NCBI RefSeq assembly: GCF_002239585.1
Contig: NZ_NDFH01000003.1
Location: 124,001-188,000 of the forward strand
Direction of reading: 5' to 3'
Length of the DNA stretch: 64,000 bases
From: Psychromonas sp. CD1
GTDB taxonomy: Bacteria; Pseudomonadota; Gammaproteobacteria; Enterobacterales; Psychromonadaceae
Position 1 is the stretch's first letter. The number at the start of each line of letters is the position of its first letter. Positions 2,264 through 59,628 of the stretch are shown here, one piece after another. A model generated the notes under the pieces. The model was given only the letters and a program-made list of their open reading frames with translations, had not been told where the DNA came from and searched no databases. A program made the translations under genes and the position numbers.

Positions 2264-3732
2264 TGGGGAAAGTGACAGGATTTTTAGAATTAGGCCGTGA
2301 GTTGCCCAAAAAAATAAGTGTTGCTGAGCGTCTTAAAAACAATAAAGAATTTGTTAAAATGGATGAATTCAGCGATAAAATTATGGGTCAAGCTTCTCGT
2401 TGTATGGATTGTGGCGTACCTTTTTGTCATAACGGTTGCCCGATTGGTAATGATATTCCAGAATTTAACGATGCGGTTTATCGAGATAGTTGGGAAGAGG
2501 CTTGGCATATATTAAATTCCACCAATAATTTCCCTGAGTTTACTGGTAGAGTTTGCCCTGCACCCTGTGAAACATCCTGTGTTCTTGGTATTAATCAAGA
2601 TCCTATTACAATTTGTAATCTTGAAAAAATGATAGTAAAAACGGCTTATAAAAATGGTTACGTTAAACCAAAAAGTCCAACGGCTCGTACGGGTAAAAAA
2701 ATTGCGATTATTGGCTCTGGGCCTGCAGGTCTGGCTGCTGCCGAGCAATTAAATAGTGCTGGACATTTTGTAACGGTTTATGAACGAGACGAAAAAGTGG
2801 GAGGGTTATTACGTTTTGGCATCCCTGATTTTAAATTAAGCTCAGATATTATTGATCGTAAAGTTGCGCTACTTGAAGCTGGTGGAATAAAAATGGTAGT
2901 TAATGCGCATGTAGGTGTTGCGATTGACGCTTGTGAATTACGCAAGAAATTTGACGTAGTACTTTTGACTGGAGGGGCAACGGTGGCCCGTGATTTACCG
3001 ATTGATGGACGTGAATTACAAGGTGTACATTTTGCGATGGAATACTTAGCGCAAAATAATCGGCGGGTGAATAATATGGATTTAAAAACACCTGAAATAT
3101 ATGCTAAAGGCGATCATGTGATTGTTATCGGTGGTGGTGATACGGGATCCGACTGTGTTGGTACTGCAAACCGTCACGGTGCAGCCTCTGTATTACAAAT
3201 TGAAATAATGCCTATTCCTGCTGAAAAACGCACCGTAAACATGCCTTGGCCATCCTATCCAATGATTTTAAAAACAACGTCATCACATGAAGAAGGAGTA
3301 GATAGGAAATGGTCTATTCTCACTAAATATTTTAAAGGTGATGCCCAAGGGCGAGTCAAAGAACTTATTATTGCTGATATAGAGTGGCAAAGTGCATTAC
3401 CAGGTGAGCGCCCTACGTTTAAGGAAGTGGCAGGCTCGGAGCGTAGCGTACCTTGTACGAAAGCCTTTTTAGCGATGGGATTTTTATATCCTGAGCCAAA
3501 AGGTATTATAACACAATTAAATATTGAGCTTAATGCGCAGGGTAATGTACAAACCTCAAACTTTCAAACAAGTCAAACGGGGATTTTTGCCGCGGGAGAT
3601 ATGCGTACAGGACAATCTTTGATTGTACGGTGTATTAACGAAGGGAGGGAGTGTGCTCGGGCGATAGATTTTTATCTAATGGGTAATTCAAATTTAGAGT
3701 GTATGTCTAGTTCTTTGATTATCTCTGATTAG
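2263..3732 (+). CDS. gltD: Glutamate synthase small subunit
   Basis: This 489-aa small (beta) subunit passes electrons from NADPH through FAD and 4Fe-4S clusters to GltB. N-terminal Fe-S cysteines are visible (RCMDCGVPFCHNGCPIGND and RVCPAPCETSCVLG), followed by an FAD-binding GSGPAGLAAAEQL near residue 150 and a nucleotide-binding IGGGDTGSDCVGTANRHG near residue 290. The start follows the GGAGG-like sequence at the end of gltB. The protein is about 17 residues longer than the E. coli protein as I remember it. The extra tail (ending SSSLIISD) is encoded by the first copy of a 100-bp tandem duplication that also carries the terminator, so the C-terminus may have been altered by that event. Confidence 0.96.
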   Translation: MGKVTGFLELGRELPKKISVAERLKNNKEFVKMDEFSDKIMGQASRCMDCGVPFCHNGCPIGNDIPEFNDAVYRDSWEEAWHILNSTNNFPEFTGRVCPAPCETSCVLGINQDPITICNLEKMIVKTAYKNGYVKPKSPTARTGKKIAIIGSGPAGLAAAEQLNSAGHFVTVYERDEKVGGLLRFGIPDFKLSSDIIDRKVALLEAGGIKMVVNAHVGVAIDACELRKKFDVVLLTGGATVARDLPIDGRELQGVHFAMEYLAQNNRRVNNMDLKTPEIYAKGDHVIVIGGGDTGSDCVGTANRHGAASVLQIEIMPIPAEKRTVNMPWPSYPMILKTTSSHEEGVDRKWSILTKYFKGDAQGRVKELIIADIEWQSALPGERPTFKEVAGSERSVPCTKAFLAMGFLYPEPKGIITQLNIELNAQGNVQTSNFQTSQTGIFAAGDMRTGQSLIVRCINEGRECARAIDFYLMGNSNLECMSSSLIISD

Positions 3733-3736
3733 TGCA

Positions 3737-3786
3737 CTCCATACAATAAGCAAAGGATGGTTATATCTTTTGCTTATTGTATGGAG
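3737..3786. terminator. gltD terminator hairpin, copy 1
   Basis: A perfect 18-bp inverted repeat (CTCCATACAATAAGCAAA, arms 3737-3754 and 3769-3786) with a 14-base loop sits four bases after the gltD stop. There is no strong U-tract, so it may act as a bidirectional terminator or as an mRNA 3' stabiliser. Confidence 0.75.
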
Positions 3787-3836
3787 ATGTCTTAAATATT
3801 GTATGTCTAGTTCTTTGATTATCTCTGATTAGCGCA

Positions 3837-3886
3837 CTCCATACAATAAGCAAAGGATGGTTATATCTTTTGCTTATTGTATGGAG
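3837..3886. terminator. gltD/queC terminator hairpin, copy 2
   Basis: This is the second copy of the 18-bp stem (arms 3837-3854 and 3869-3886), created by the 100-bp tandem duplication. It lies 24 bases from the queC stop and would serve queC on the minus strand as well as read-through from gltD. Confidence 0.75.
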
Positions 3887-3909
3887 ATGTCTTAAATATT
3901 GGGAGATTT

Positions 3910-15395: not shown

Positions 15396-15434
15396 AAACT
15401 CTCTTAATGGGTTGTTTAATTGATGTATTTTAGA

Positions 15435-15613
15435 GAATAAGTTAGTTAGTCAAAAAATCTTCTTTAATTCTAGTTCTTTTTCTTTTCTTGGTATTGTTTT
15501 TTGTAATAAAGATGTGAATGAAAGAATAAGTTAGTTAGTCAAAAAAATCTTCTTTAATTCTAGTTCTTTTTCTTTTGTTGGTATTGTTTTTTGTAATAAA
15601 GATATAAATGAAG
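15435..15613. repeat. Diverged ~89-bp tandem duplication upstream of the antiporter gene
   Basis: A unit of 89 bp (15435-15523) is followed directly by a 90-bp copy (15524-15613). They differ by one extra A in the A-run, C/G at the CTTGG/GTTGG site, and a GATGTG/GATATA change near the end. The repeat lies in the 448-bp gap between the antiporter (minus strand) and yfaE, so it is probably in the antiporter leader or promoter. The rest of the gap, 15614-15798, is AT-rich; I see no gene or clear site there. Confidence 0.92.
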
Positions 15614-44345: not shown

Positions 44346-45674
44346 ATGATTGAACAGAAAAAGCAACTTGAAAATGCGGTGCAAGATGCATTAATGATGG
44401 CTAAAAAATTAGGTGCAGATCAAGCGGAAGTAGCTCTTGGTAAAAGCTCTGGAATATCGGTAAATACTCGTTTAGGAGAAGTTGAAAACATAGAGTTTAA
44501 TCTTGATGGCGCAATGGGGATCAGTGTTTATGTGGGGCATTGTAAAGGTAGTGCCTCAACGGCAGATTTAAGTCCTGATGCGATTTTGTCGACGGTAAAA
44601 GCGGCCATTAATATTGCTAAATACACGAGTAAAGATACTTTTTCTGGATTGTTAGATCCAGACTTGTTAGAGCGCTCCGTTGAGGACTTAGACTTATATT
44701 ATCCAAGTCAACTCAATACTGAAGAATTACTTTCCATGGCAAAAGAATGTGAAGAGTTAGCATTAGATAGTGATCCTTTAATTGTCAATTCAGACGGTGC
44801 TTCTGTAAATAGCCACTCGAGTTTACGTGTTTATGGGAATAGTAATGATTTTTTAGAAAGTTATGCGAGTAGTCGGCATAGTTTAAGTTGTGTGTTAATC
44901 GCACAAAAAGGTGAAGAAATGCAACGCGATCATAGCTATACAAGCGATCGTGATATAAAAGATCTTTATTCTGCACAGTGGGTGGCAGAGGATGCCGTGA
45001 AACGTACGGTTGAGCGTTTAGGCGCTGTAAAATTGGCAACCCAAGAAACCCCTGTTATATTTTCACCCGAAGTAGCAAGTAGTTTGTTTGGTCATTTTGT
45101 GAGCGCCATTAGTGGCATGAATTTATATCGTAAATCCACATTTTTAGTGGATACTTTAGGTAAACAAATTTTCCCTAGTTGGATGAAAATAGAAGAAAAA
45201 CCGCATATTAAAAAAGGCATCGCGAGTTCTCCTTTTGATCAAGAAGGGGGGAAAACACAAGATGCTTTAATTGTAGAGCAAGGTGTTTTACAAACATATT
45301 TATTAACGGGATATGCGGCGCGAAAATTAAAAATGAAAAGTACCGGGCACTGTGGTGGTATTCATAATTGGTTTATTGCATCGAATTGTCATTTAGATTT
45401 GGCGGGGCTTTTTAAGGAAATGGGTACGGGACTGTTTGTTACTGAACTTATGGGGCAAGGAGTGAATATTGTGACGGGCGATTATTCTCGTGGTGCATCT
45501 GGTTTTTGGATAGAGAACGGTGTAATTGCTTATCCCGTTCATGAAATTACAATAGCGGGAAATTTACAACATATGTTCAAGAATATTGAAGCGATAGGTT
45601 GTGATGTAGATCCACGCAGTAGTTTAAAAACAGGCTCTATTTTAATGGGGAAAATGAAAGTGGCAGGGCTTTAA
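44346..45674 (+). CDS. pmbA: Metalloprotease subunit PmbA (TldE)
   Basis: PmbA/TldE pairs with TldD in a zinc protease that degrades unfolded peptides and matures microcin B17 and CcdA in E. coli. PmbA itself lacks the metal-binding HExxxH of TldD, and that motif is not present here, as expected. The 442-aa length is normal, with FNLDGAMGISVYVGHCKGSAS near residue 55 and the C-terminal ELMGQGVNIVTGDYSRGASGFW near 375. Its usual partner tldD is not in the window. A terminator hairpin follows about 100 bases downstream. Confidence 0.94.
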   Translation: MIEQKKQLENAVQDALMMAKKLGADQAEVALGKSSGISVNTRLGEVENIEFNLDGAMGISVYVGHCKGSASTADLSPDAILSTVKAAINIAKYTSKDTFSGLLDPDLLERSVEDLDLYYPSQLNTEELLSMAKECEELALDSDPLIVNSDGASVNSHSSLRVYGNSNDFLESYASSRHSLSCVLIAQKGEEMQRDHSYTSDRDIKDLYSAQWVAEDAVKRTVERLGAVKLATQETPVIFSPEVASSLFGHFVSAISGMNLYRKSTFLVDTLGKQIFPSWMKIEEKPHIKKGIASSPFDQEGGKTQDALIVEQGVLQTYLLTGYAARKLKMKSTGHCGGIHNWFIASNCHLDLAGLFKEMGTGLFVTELMGQGVNIVTGDYSRGASGFWIENGVIAYPVHEITIAGNLQHMFKNIEAIGCDVDPRSSLKTGSILMGKMKVAGL

Positions 45675-45777: not shown

Positions 45778-45818
45778 AAATGAACGAGAAGTTAATTTTT
45801 CTATCCGTTCATTTTTTT
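45778..45818 (+). terminator. pmbA terminator
   Basis: AAATGAACG (45778-45786) pairs with CGTTCATTT (45806-45814), extended by an inner AGAA/TTCT pairing with a three-base bulge, and a run of seven T (45812-45818) completes an intrinsic terminator. It lies 15 bases before the inverted repeat that precedes rlpA, so rlpA needs its own promoter. Confidence 0.78.
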
Positions 45819-45833
45819 GGCTGGAAAAGTAAG

Positions 45834-45905
45834 ACTCGCACTAGATAATGAAATTTTAGTAGAATTATTGCTTTTTTGTCACAATAAACGCGTGGGGATA
45901 TTGAT
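45834..45905 (+). repeat. 72-bp perfect inverted repeat flanking rlpA, left copy
   Basis: Bases 45834-45905 are the exact reverse complement of 46648-46719, all 72 positions. This copy ends at the base before the rlpA ATG and supplies its ribosome-binding site (GTGGGGATATTGAT). It is a reverse copy of the rlpA 3' end (last 13 codons with stop) plus 31 bases of downstream DNA. The segment between the copies is 742 bp. Confidence 0.98.
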
Positions 45906-46688
45906 ATGAGATTTTTAAATATTTTAATCCTTTGTATTAGCATACTACTACTGAGTGCATGTAGTAGTGGTCGCTATGCTATCAGCGATGATCATGCACC
46001 AAGTAATGCATCTATCCCTCCCTTAACGCATATGTCTAATGTATCTCCCCGCTATGAACCCTACTCGCGAGGAGGTAATAGTGATTATACGGTGCGTGGT
46101 ATTGATTATAAAGTATTAAGGGATATTACTAGCTTTACTGAAAAGGGAAATGCATCTTGGTACGGAAAAAAGTTTCACGGTCACCTCACCTCTAATGGTG
46201 AACGTTATGATATGTTTGCTATGAGTGGCGCACATAAAAATCTTCCGATCCCTAGTTATGTCGAAGTTACTAATTTAAAAAACAAGAAAACGATCATTGT
46301 CCGTATTAATGATCGTGGGCCTTTTCATCCTGATCGCATCATTGATCTTTCTTATGTGGCAGCGAAAAAACTCGATATGCTTACATCTGGCACAACGCCA
46401 GTTGAAATAAAATTATTACATTTCACAAAAAAAAATGACGTTATTAAAACACCAGCATCAAGTACAAAATTCTATATACAGTATCTTGTTACCTCGCAGT
46501 ATTCTAAAGCAAAAAATATCGATAGTGTATTAAGTGAAAAATATAATGTTGCTTCCTACTTTGATAAAAAAGGAAATAACTACCGATTGCGTTTAGGTCC
46601 TCTACAAAATAAAGATAAAACAGAGCAGCTACTGAGTAAAATACAACATCAATATCCCCACGCGTTTATTGTGACAAAAAAGCAATAA
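45906..46688 (+). CDS. rlpA: Septal-ring lytic transglycosylase-like lipoprotein RlpA
   Basis: RlpA is an outer-membrane lipoprotein that binds denuded glycan strands at the septum and in some species cleaves them. The 260-aa protein has a lipoprotein signal with lipobox LSAC (Cys19) followed by SSG, a double-psi beta-barrel (GNASWYGKKFHGHLTSNGE near residue 75; NDRGPFHPDRIIDLS near 135) and a C-terminal SPOR domain (about 185-260) ending PHAFIVTKKQ. In E. coli it follows mrdA-mrdB in the same direction; here it points toward mrdA and lies inside a 72-bp perfect inverted repeat. Its last 13 codons are part of the right copy, so both orientations of the segment would encode the same protein. 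Confidence 0.94.
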   Translation: MRFLNILILCISILLLSACSSGRYAISDDHAPSNASIPPLTHMSNVSPRYEPYSRGGNSDYTVRGIDYKVLRDITSFTEKGNASWYGKKFHGHLTSNGERYDMFAMSGAHKNLPIPSYVEVTNLKNKKTIIVRINDRGPFHPDRIIDLSYVAAKKLDMLTSGTTPVEIKLLHFTKKNDVIKTPASSTKFYIQYLVTSQYSKAKNIDSVLSEKYNVASYFDKKGNNYRLRLGPLQNKDKTEQLLSKIQHQYPHAFIVTKKQ

Positions 46689-46719
46689 TTCTACTAAAAT
46701 TTCATTATCTAGTGCGAGT
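46648..46719 (-). repeat. 72-bp perfect inverted repeat flanking rlpA, right copy
   Basis: This is the partner of the left copy. It covers the last 41 bases of rlpA, including the TAA stop, and the first 31 bases after it. It is probably the ancestral copy, since the coding end PHAFIVTKKQ fits a natural SPOR-domain C-terminus. Between it and mrdA (46720-46787) I see only a weak GTAAAAA/TTTTTAC palindrome. Confidence 0.98.
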
Positions 46720-46787
46720 GATCAATATGACAACGGGTAAAAATGTTTTTACTTGAAGGTATATTAAGCATATTAAAATTTAAACCC

Positions 46788-48659
46788 TTACAAAGAGATT
46801 ACTGGAGGTGGATGAGAAAAATATTCATCAAATAATTTACGGATAACAGGTGCCGCTTGGCTACTACCACCTCCCGCATTTTCCAAAACTACGATAGCAA
46901 CTATTTCTGGTGATTCAAAGGGAGCAAAAGCGATAAAGATAGCATTATCTCTATGTCGCTCTGCTATCTTACTGGCATCATAGCGTTCTTTTTCTTTTAT
47001 ACTTACAATTTGTGCTGTCCCTGATTTTCCTGCAACAGTATACGAAACGCCAGTAAACGCTCGATGTGCGGTACCTATGCGTTTACTGGTAACAGATTGC
47101 ATTGCATTGAGCACGATATCCCAATATTTTTCATTTTTTAATACAAGAGGCTCTTGTATGTTTTGTATAGTTTTAAACGTACCTGAATCGGATAAAATAG
47201 AGCGTAATATCGTTGGTTCAATGACGTTACCGCGACGCGCCAAAATAGCAGTGGCTTTAGCAAGCTGAATTGGTGTTGATGTCCAGTAACCTTGTCCGAT
47301 ACCAATTGAAATAGTATCACCATCATACCAAGGTGCTTTATAGCGTTCTTTTTTCCACTCTCTTGAGGGCATAATAGCTTTGGTTTCTTCACCAATATCT
47401 AGGCCACTGTAATCACCGAAGCCAAATTTACGCATAAAGGGAGAAATTCTATCAATACCTAATTTATACGCTGCCTTATAAAAAAATGTATCGCAACTTT
47501 GTTCAATGGCTAAATTAACATTGACCATTCCGTGTCCCCATCGATTCCAATCACGAAAACGACGTTTTGAACCCGGTACTATCCACCAACCAGGATCGTA
47601 AATTTGACTATGTTCAGTGATCACATTTTCGTTTAAGGCTAATAATGCCATTTCTGGTTTAATAGTAGATGCAGGGGAATAACGTCCTTGGGTTGCCCTG
47701 TTAATTAAAGGGCGATCTTTTGACTCCAATAAGGCTTTATATTTTTTATAACTGATACCTTGCACAAAAAGATTGGGATCATAAGTGGGACTTGAGATTA
47801 AGCTTAAAACACCACCCGTTTTAGCGTTAAGAATAACGATGCTGCCTCGGTATCCTGTTAATAACTCTTGTGCTTTTAGTTGTAATTTTACGTCTAAATT
47901 TAATTTTATATCTTTCCCAGATATAGGGGGGATATAGTTTAATGTGCGGATAACTTTCCCCCAACTATCCACCTCTACTTGACGGCGACCAGGCTTACCA
48001 TGTAATAAGTCTTCATAATATTTTTCAATGCCTAGTTTGCCAATATAATGTGTACCTCGATAAAGTGAACGTTTACCTTGATTTTTAATACGTTGTATAT
48101 CTTTACTGTTTATTTTTGCAATGTAACCGAGTACATGTGTAAAAGTATCACCAAAAGGATAGTAGCGTTTAAGGGTTGCGTTAATAGAGAAACCTTGATA
48201 TTTAAATTGGTTAACGGTGAATAACGCGACTTGTTTTTGGCTGAGCTGATCTTTTATTTCAATACTTTTAAAGGAACGAGAGTAATAATTTTTACTTTTA
48301 AATGTTTGTAATTCTTCATCGGTAATGGAAAGTAACTTTTGTAAGTCTTTTAAGTTTTCTTTTAGATTTATGGTGTTTCGGACAATCACCCTGAGGCTAT
48401 AAATAGGACGATTTTCAGCTAAAATAATACCGTTTCTATCGTAAATGAGTCCTCGAGTTGGGGGGACTATTTGTACACTGATACGATTATCATTCGAGCG
48501 AGTCTTATATTTTTTAAAAGAAGTAATTTGTAGATAATAAAGATTGCTAACTAATATGGCGAGTAAAATAACAATACAGATAAAGACTAATATAGAGCGT
48601 CGCATAAAAAGAGATGATTCAGCCGAATGGTTTCTGATATTTGCGTGTTTTTTGGGCAC
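46788..48659 (-). CDS. mrdA: Penicillin-binding protein 2 (elongasome transpeptidase)
   Basis: PBP2 is the class B transpeptidase of lateral wall growth, working with RodA, MreBCD and RodZ. At 623 aa it has a membrane anchor (about residues 20-42, SILVFICIVILLAILVSNLY), a pedestal domain with RGLIYDRNGIILAENRP, and the transpeptidase domain: active-site SPASTIKP (STIK) near residue 330, SCDTFFY near 382 and KSGTAQ near 545. It is the last gene of rsfS-rlmH-mrdA with gaps of two bases or overlaps. The expected next gene, rodA (mrdB), is absent, and convergent rlpA follows instead. Confidence 0.96.
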   Translation of the reverse strand: MPKKHANIRNHSAESSLFMRRSILVFICIVILLAILVSNLYYLQITSFKKYKTRSNDNRISVQIVPPTRGLIYDRNGIILAENRPIYSLRVIVRNTINLKENLKDLQKLLSITDEELQTFKSKNYYSRSFKSIEIKDQLSQKQVALFTVNQFKYQGFSINATLKRYYPFGDTFTHVLGYIAKINSKDIQRIKNQGKRSLYRGTHYIGKLGIEKYYEDLLHGKPGRRQVEVDSWGKVIRTLNYIPPISGKDIKLNLDVKLQLKAQELLTGYRGSIVILNAKTGGVLSLISSPTYDPNLFVQGISYKKYKALLESKDRPLINRATQGRYSPASTIKPEMALLALNENVITEHSQIYDPGWWIVPGSKRRFRDWNRWGHGMVNVNLAIEQSCDTFFYKAAYKLGIDRISPFMRKFGFGDYSGLDIGEETKAIMPSREWKKERYKAPWYDGDTISIGIGQGYWTSTPIQLAKATAILARRGNVIEPTILRSILSDSGTFKTIQNIQEPLVLKNEKYWDIVLNAMQSVTSKRIGTAHRAFTGVSYTVAGKSGTAQIVSIKEKERYDASKIAERHRDNAIFIAFAPFESPEIVAIVVLENAGGGSSQAAPVIRKLFDEYFSHPPPVISL

Positions 48660-58415: not shown

Positions 58416-59628
58416 AACCCTAAAAGCATGTTTTAAAACAAAGAGAGTCGATACTCGGCCTTATGACCAAGCATTACTCGTGGTTACTTTGTGTCTAATG
58501 GCGATTGGGATGGTAATTGTTGCCTCTGCTTCAATTCAAGAAGGTATCAATATCTCCAATGACCCTTTTTATTTTTTAAAGCGTCATCTGTCGTACGTAG
58601 TACTTTGTTTCATGACGATAGGCCTTATTGTTAGCATACCCGTGCGGCATTGGTATGAGAAACAAATGCTATTATTAGGGCTCGCTTTTTTAGGTTTATT
58701 CGCTGTTTTTTTATTTGGCACGGAAGTCAACGGTGCACATCGCTGGCTGCGCCTAGGCGCTATTAATGTGCAACCTTCAGAGTTTGCTAAATTGGCGATT
58801 ATTATATTTTTAGCAAGCTATTTAGTACGTCGCCAAGAAGAAGTTATTGATACTATTAAAGGTTTTATTAAACCCTTAATTATTTTATCTGTTTTTTCAT
58901 TACTATTATTATTACAACCTGATCTAGGCTCGACCGTTGTTATTGTGGTGATAATGATGGGGATGCTCTTTATTGCAGATGCTAAATTAATTTCTTTTAT
59001 TGGGATAATGATTTCATTATTAGCGGTTATTGTGAGTTTGATTTTGGTATCACCGTACCGGATGGCGCGTGTTTTCGGTTTTATGGATCCGTGGGCTGAT
59101 CCGTTTGGACGTAGTTATCAACTGACTCAATCATTAATGGCGTTTGGTCGAGGCGGAATATTTGGTGAAGGTTTAGGGAATTCAGTACAAAAATTAGAAT
59201 ATTTACCCGAAGCACATACCGATTTTATTATGGCTATTTTGGCTGAAGAATTAGGCTTTATTGGTGTAACAATTGTCATCGCGTTAGAGTTTTATCTGGT
59301 TTATAAGGCTTTTTCTATTGGAAAAAAGGCATTACAGCATAATTTGATTTTTTCTGGTTATGTCGCCATAGGAATTGCAATTTGGTTCTTTTTCCAAATT
59401 GCCGTTAATGTGGGGGCCGCATCAGGCATGGTACCAACAAAAGGATTAACATTACCCTTAGTCAGTTATGGTGGCTCCAGTTTATTAACAATTGCGCTTG
59501 CAATAGGGTTACTGTTACGGATTGATTTTGAAAGACGTAACAGTGAAAAAAAGGATGTTGAGGTACAAAAAAAAGCGGTGCGCAAAAAAAATGATGCGAA
59601 AAAAAAGGAAATTAACTTAGATGTGTAA
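58402..59628 (+). CDS. ftsW: Septal peptidoglycan polymerase FtsW (SEDS)
   Basis: FtsW is the SEDS glycosyltransferase that works with FtsI at the septum. The 408-aa protein has ten membrane helices. Conserved are EVNGAHRWLRLGAINVQPSE near residue 110, LLQPDLGSTVVI near 170, the periplasmic loop EAHTDFIMAILAEELGF near 270 and VSYGGSSLL near 355. Position between murD and murG identifies it as FtsW and not RodA. A very basic C-terminal tail (residues 375-408, many Lys) is longer than usual. It overlaps murG by eight bases. Confidence 0.95.
   Translation: MLNFETLKACFKTKRVDTRPYDQALLVVTLCLMAIGMVIVASASIQEGINISNDPFYFLKRHLSYVVLCFMTIGLIVSIPVRHWYEKQMLLLGLAFLGLFAVFLFGTEVNGAHRWLRLGAINVQPSEFAKLAIIIFLASYLVRRQEEVIDTIKGFIKPLIILSVFSLLLLLQPDLGSTVVIVVIMMGMLFIADAKLISFIGIMISLLAVIVSLILVSPYRMARVFGFMDPWADPFGRSYQLTQSLMAFGRGGIFGEGLGNSVQKLEYLPEAHTDFIMAILAEELGFIGVTIVIALEFYLVYKAFSIGKKALQHNLIFSGYVAIGIAIWFFFQIAVNVGAASGMVPTKGLTLPLVSYGGSSLLTIALAIGLLLRIDFERRNSEKKDVEVQKKAVRKKNDAKKKEINLDV

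Follow-up and report, generated by a model that had tools for sequence, protein, structure and literature searches.

A perfect inverted repeat around a reversed rlpA gene in Psychromonas, the probable scar of one replication template switch that also removed mrdB

We found that the rlpA gene in this Psychromonas genome lies between the two arms of a perfect 72-bp inverted repeat, and we conclude that the repeat is probably the scar of one local replication template-switch event, combining an inversion, a deletion and an inverted duplication, in a lineage undergoing gene loss. The DNA analysed (the window) is a 64-kb stretch, G000:C3:124001–188000, of an assembly of 1,688,234 bp in three contigs, and coordinates are given as positions in the window unless a contig is named. 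The setting of the rearrangement is a shrinking, symbiont-like genome, and the case is an unusually clear one at the scale of a whole gene, in which one template switch would have inverted a gene, deleted its neighbor and made a leader for the gene by reversing its own 3′ end. The locus also illustrates that an intact gene enclosed by a perfect inverted repeat can mimic a designed switch. Its features are as follows.

44346–45674, plus strand: pmbA, collinear with the nearest relative as far as the pmbA 3′ end.
45778–45818, no strand assigned: hairpin and T-run in the interval that separates pmbA from the left arm (−10.8 kcal/mol, z −2.9).
45822–45849, plus strand: promoter-like TGGAAA-16-GATAAT upstream of rlpA, with its second hexamer inside the left arm; weak consensus match.
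45834–45905, no strand assigned: left arm, the reverse complement of the rlpA 3′ end, matching in both site and strand the end of rlpA in relatives and now serving as the rlpA leader.
45906–46688, plus strand: rlpA, 260 aa, intact, carrying a lipobox and the DPBB and SPOR domains; its orientation is opposite to that in all genus relatives examined.
46648–46719, no strand assigned: right arm, comprising the last 13 rlpA codons (the conserved SPOR C-terminus), the stop and about 30 bp of ancestral 3′ flank.
46733–46704, minus strand: mirror promoter-like TTGTCA-18-GATAAT on the other side of the cassette; weak consensus match.
46720–46771, minus strand: mrdB (rodA) remnant, the first 17 codons (MLNIPSSKNIFTRCHID); the remainder is deleted.
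46788–48659, minus strand: mrdA (PBP2), with its catalytic domain intact and a C-terminus a few residues shorter than that of the nearest relative.

The two arms are exact reverse complements with zero differences in the assembly sequence, and our sequence comparison confirms the initial annotation on this point. That annotation had also assigned the last 13 rlpA codons to the right copy and the leader with its ribosome-binding site to the left copy, and the coordinates agree: the left arm stops one base 5′ of the rlpA ATG (45906), and a GGGGA ribosome-binding-like motif lies 7 nt upstream of the ATG. The encoded protein is a clear member of the RlpA family (PF03330, E 5e-27; PF05036, E 4e-8; NF007953 above its cut-off) and carries an LSAC lipobox. 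Because the codons in the right arm match the RlpA C-terminus conserved among relatives (Y-P-x-A-F-I-V or close), the right arm is the original rlpA coding sequence. No other inverted repeat in the window exceeds 20 bp, and each arm is single-copy in the whole assembly except for its partner, with no third copy. A 400-kb sample of the nearest relative contained no dispersed inverted repeat of at least 30 bp within 5 kb, and a 400-kb sample of this genome contained a single one, which is debris of a cloning vector. Hence the 72-bp match cannot be chance. Rfam gave no match within the repeat, and a known RNA element was dropped as an explanation. The ends of a mobile element were dropped as well, the arms being rlpA coding sequence and its 3′ flank with no further copies. 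An inverted repeat with 36-bp arms, considered as a second scar in the genome, was likewise set aside, as it is a cloning-vector polylinker.

The ancestral arrangement of the locus was read from 21 loci of the genus in which both rlpA and mrdA are in view, pmbA being in view in 11 of them. In all 21, mrdA, mrdB and rlpA lie on one strand with an intact mrdB in between, and pmbA is convergent in each of the 11. The ancestral order according to the relatives is thus pmbA> <rlpA <mrdB <mrdA. A comparison of orientation with related strains had been set beforehand as a check on the locus, and it gave a uniform answer: rlpA is co-directional with mrdA in 21/21 genus loci, whereas in the window the two genes are on different strands and rlpA forms a reversed segment. 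None of the 21 relative loci has an inverted repeat of at least 16 bp with a spacer of 300–2500 bp, and the window has the 72-bp one. The locus shares its genes and neighborhood (rsfS–rlmH–mrdA and pmbA) with the gammaproteobacterial mrdA–mrdB–rlpA operon, but here mrdB is lost and rlpA is reversed.

The missing mrdB is the key to what happened at the locus. The initial annotation described the repeat and the gene positions correctly, but it overlooked that mrdB is absent between mrdA and rlpA. We found that mrdB is absent from all three contigs save its first 17 codons (46771–46720). Furthermore, the genome has one SEDS gene, at the ftsW place of the division cluster, where relatives have two. 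Compared with 22 relatives, the mrdB stub carries S9N, Y12T and L14C, all at residues that are conserved or nearly so, and these changes fit a genuine loss of mrdB.

The ends of the repeat coincide with the breakpoints of the rearrangement. In an alignment with the nearest relative, homology to rlpA begins at 45906, the first base past the left arm. A local alignment with the same relative places the onset of homology to the mrdB start and the mrdA end precisely at 46720, immediately beyond the right arm, with collinearity from there on. Both repeat ends (45905 and 46719) are therefore also the two rearrangement junctions, in a comparison with a relative that has diverged to about 0.6 differences at 4-fold sites. 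The position of the arm ends at both junctions points to one reverse-copying excursion between two switches, as unrelated events are not expected to coincide in this way.

The event can be described with four points. A nascent strand copying from the pmbA side would first cross the 72 bp made up of the rlpA 3′ end and its flank (point 1, 45905) and would jump to the other strand at the start codon of rlpA (point 2, now 45906). It would then copy rlpA in reverse, down to the 3′ end and across that 72-bp stretch once more (point 3, 46719), and return to the original template inside mrdB, past codon 17 (point 4, now 46720). A single event of this kind would invert rlpA and duplicate its 3′ end as an inverted repeat, and the same event would delete most of mrdB together with the former rlpA leader, leaving rlpA with its own reversed 3′ end as a new leader. 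The ancestral order of the points in this history is 3-1-2-4. An equivalent route, which would leave an indistinguishable sequence, has the order 3-2-1-4, where a 72-bp inverted templated insertion would replace the mrdB region and the 742-bp spacer would flip later.

Template switches of this type have precedents. In the four-point model of Loytynoja and Goldman, reverse-complement copying between switch points often leaves perfect inverted repeats, as seen here, and 3-2-1-4 is among the majority patterns in that study (PMC7954356). Those mutations mostly span tens to hundreds of bases, whereas here about 814 nt was reversed, about 1 kb was deleted and a whole gene was moved. Paired inverted template switches have been documented in starving E. 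coli, also a gammaproteobacterium, with two inverted junctions as in our case (PMC3161906). The E. coli cases differ in being selected amplifications with inverted duplications of 5–43 kb, and microhomology was seen in them. The dimension of the fork was given as 1.5 kb in that work (PMC3161906), and the roughly 0.8 kb of reverse-copied and 1 kb of deleted DNA at the rlpA locus are of that order.

The initial annotation had proposed that rlpA may exist in two orientations, and the first alternative follows this idea: the segment would be a reversible cassette in which rlpA flips via the 72-bp arms, by homologous recombination or template switching, and so alters its expression. We give this alternative a low probability. 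The geometry is as that annotation described: perfect arms enclose a complete gene, inversion keeps rlpA intact with the same leader and end, and the inverted product has the orientation seen in all relatives; 72-bp arms around a 742-bp spacer are also suitable dimensions for an inverton. Each arm contains a −10-like sequence, and the upstream hexamers outside the arms differ between the two directions; all of these are weak matches. Against a switch, the cassette is found in 0/21 relatives, the arm ends are the junctions of a one-off deletion and inversion, and no dedicated recombinase adjoins it. Among the genes neighboring the repeat (pmbA, mrdA, rlmH, darP and punC) there is no recombinase gene, and tyrosine recombinases, of which the genome encodes three, are all located elsewhere, so a site-specific inversion system was dropped. 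Invertons and other phase-variable elements likewise have inverted repeats flanking a segment near a cell-envelope gene (PMC11892184 and others), but the rlpA repeat extends into coding sequence and copies the end of the very gene it flanks, and the cassette comes without an adjoining recombinase, conservation or an observed second state. Our survey of the literature on RlpA and inverted repeats, judged from titles and abstracts, gave no evident report of an rlpA switch. What stands of the two-orientation idea is that, provided the assembly is right, the lineage did undergo a single reorientation of rlpA. A regulated or working on/off switch at rlpA is unlikely on present evidence, and back-inversion between the arms at low frequency is possible.

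Only one observation leans toward continuing activity, and it does not by itself show inversion: the arms are still identical though the adjoining mrdB stub has drifted, a pattern that exchange between the arms would produce. One reading is that the event is recent and the decay of mrdB preceded it; the other is that later exchange has preserved the identity of the arms, and this would favor some continuing activity. Exchange that keeps the arms of an inverted repeat identical has been described, and template switching was reported to homogenize arms and invert spacers in yeast, at very short spacers (PMC8604942); the 742-bp spacer here far exceeds the spacers of those cases. It is quite unlikely that the arms are active in this genome, with rlpA flipping between the convergent and the ancestral orientation in the population and its leader pairing perfectly with its own 3′ end in both states. 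If true, one copying accident would have made a self-antisense, orientation-variable rlpA. RecA was not found in the assembly, which might seem to count against recombination between the arms, but the recA–mutS block of the nearest relative is absent at a vector-contaminated join (C3 about 1179200–1180500) that stands in its place. The apparent absence is therefore not usable as evidence, and the loss of RecA was withdrawn as an argument against inversion.

The second alternative is an artefact of assembly or PCR, in which the true locus is ancestral, or the repeat is real and its 742-bp center was misoriented in the reassembly or in manual gap closing. The assembly is very probably that of Psychromonas sp. 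CDP1, a gut bacterium of the hadal amphipod Hirondellea gigas (three contigs with 1,688,241 bp in total and a GC of 36.9%; PMC5893861). The CDP1 assembly was built by pooling the Illumina short reads of six metagenomes (2 x 125 or 150 bp), using SPAdes reassembly with trusted contigs, manual linking of cloned PCR products and Sanger gap closing, and such a procedure could produce an error of this kind. At least two sites of the assembly retain polylinker and enterobacterial rmuC sequence, and the 72-bp repeat is longer than the smaller k-mers used. However, both novel junctions are native Psychromonas sequence and the window is free of vector. The loss of mrdB from all three contigs and the relaxed appearance of the stub also speak for a real deletion. 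Furthermore, both the reads and the largest k-mers reported for the first assembly exceed 72 bp, and the locus is deep inside a 1.38-Mb contig. Hence an artefact at the rlpA locus is unlikely. The foreign DNA lies outside the window, at C3:214458–215696 (L156:4458–5696) and C3:1179436–1180499 (L202:13437–14500). Both tracts are high in GC and contain cloning-vector polylinker, lacZ-like vector sequence and enterobacterial rmuC, with 609 bp identical between them; they are leftovers of clone-based gap closing in the public assembly.

Staggered double-strand breaks followed by end joining would give the same product geometry, an inverted segment with one end duplicated and a deletion at the other, but this would need at least two breaks plus joining, and the absence of a Ku gene in this genome and in three relatives argues against it, so that this highly improbable origin was dropped.

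The template-switch event would also have given rlpA new surroundings. The gene is now outside the mrdA operon and behind the hairpin and T-run at 45778–45818, which is probably the pmbA terminator and would now isolate rlpA from pmbA transcription; genome G010 also has a hairpin at the corresponding position. In this position rlpA is presumably still expressed. In the rlpA mRNA, the leader and the 3′ end are predicted to form a perfect pairing of 50 bp (45856–46725; −241 kcal/mol, vs −179 kcal/mol for shuffles), assuming a transcription start near 45856. As a prediction, such pairing could lower translation or invite RNase III.

Several further observations were made in the window. PBP2 (mrdA), MreB and MreC are kept without RodA (46788–48659, 58474–59538), the remaining SEDS gene being the division one, and the retention of these three proteins without any RodA is a cell-wall observation useful by itself. 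The early stop of mrdA (46771–46788) is a TAA where the nearest relative has CAA, just before the mrdB start. Finally, the window contains two-copy tandem repeats at 3700–3901 (period 100 bp, 99% matches) and 15434–15612 (period 90 bp, 95% matches).
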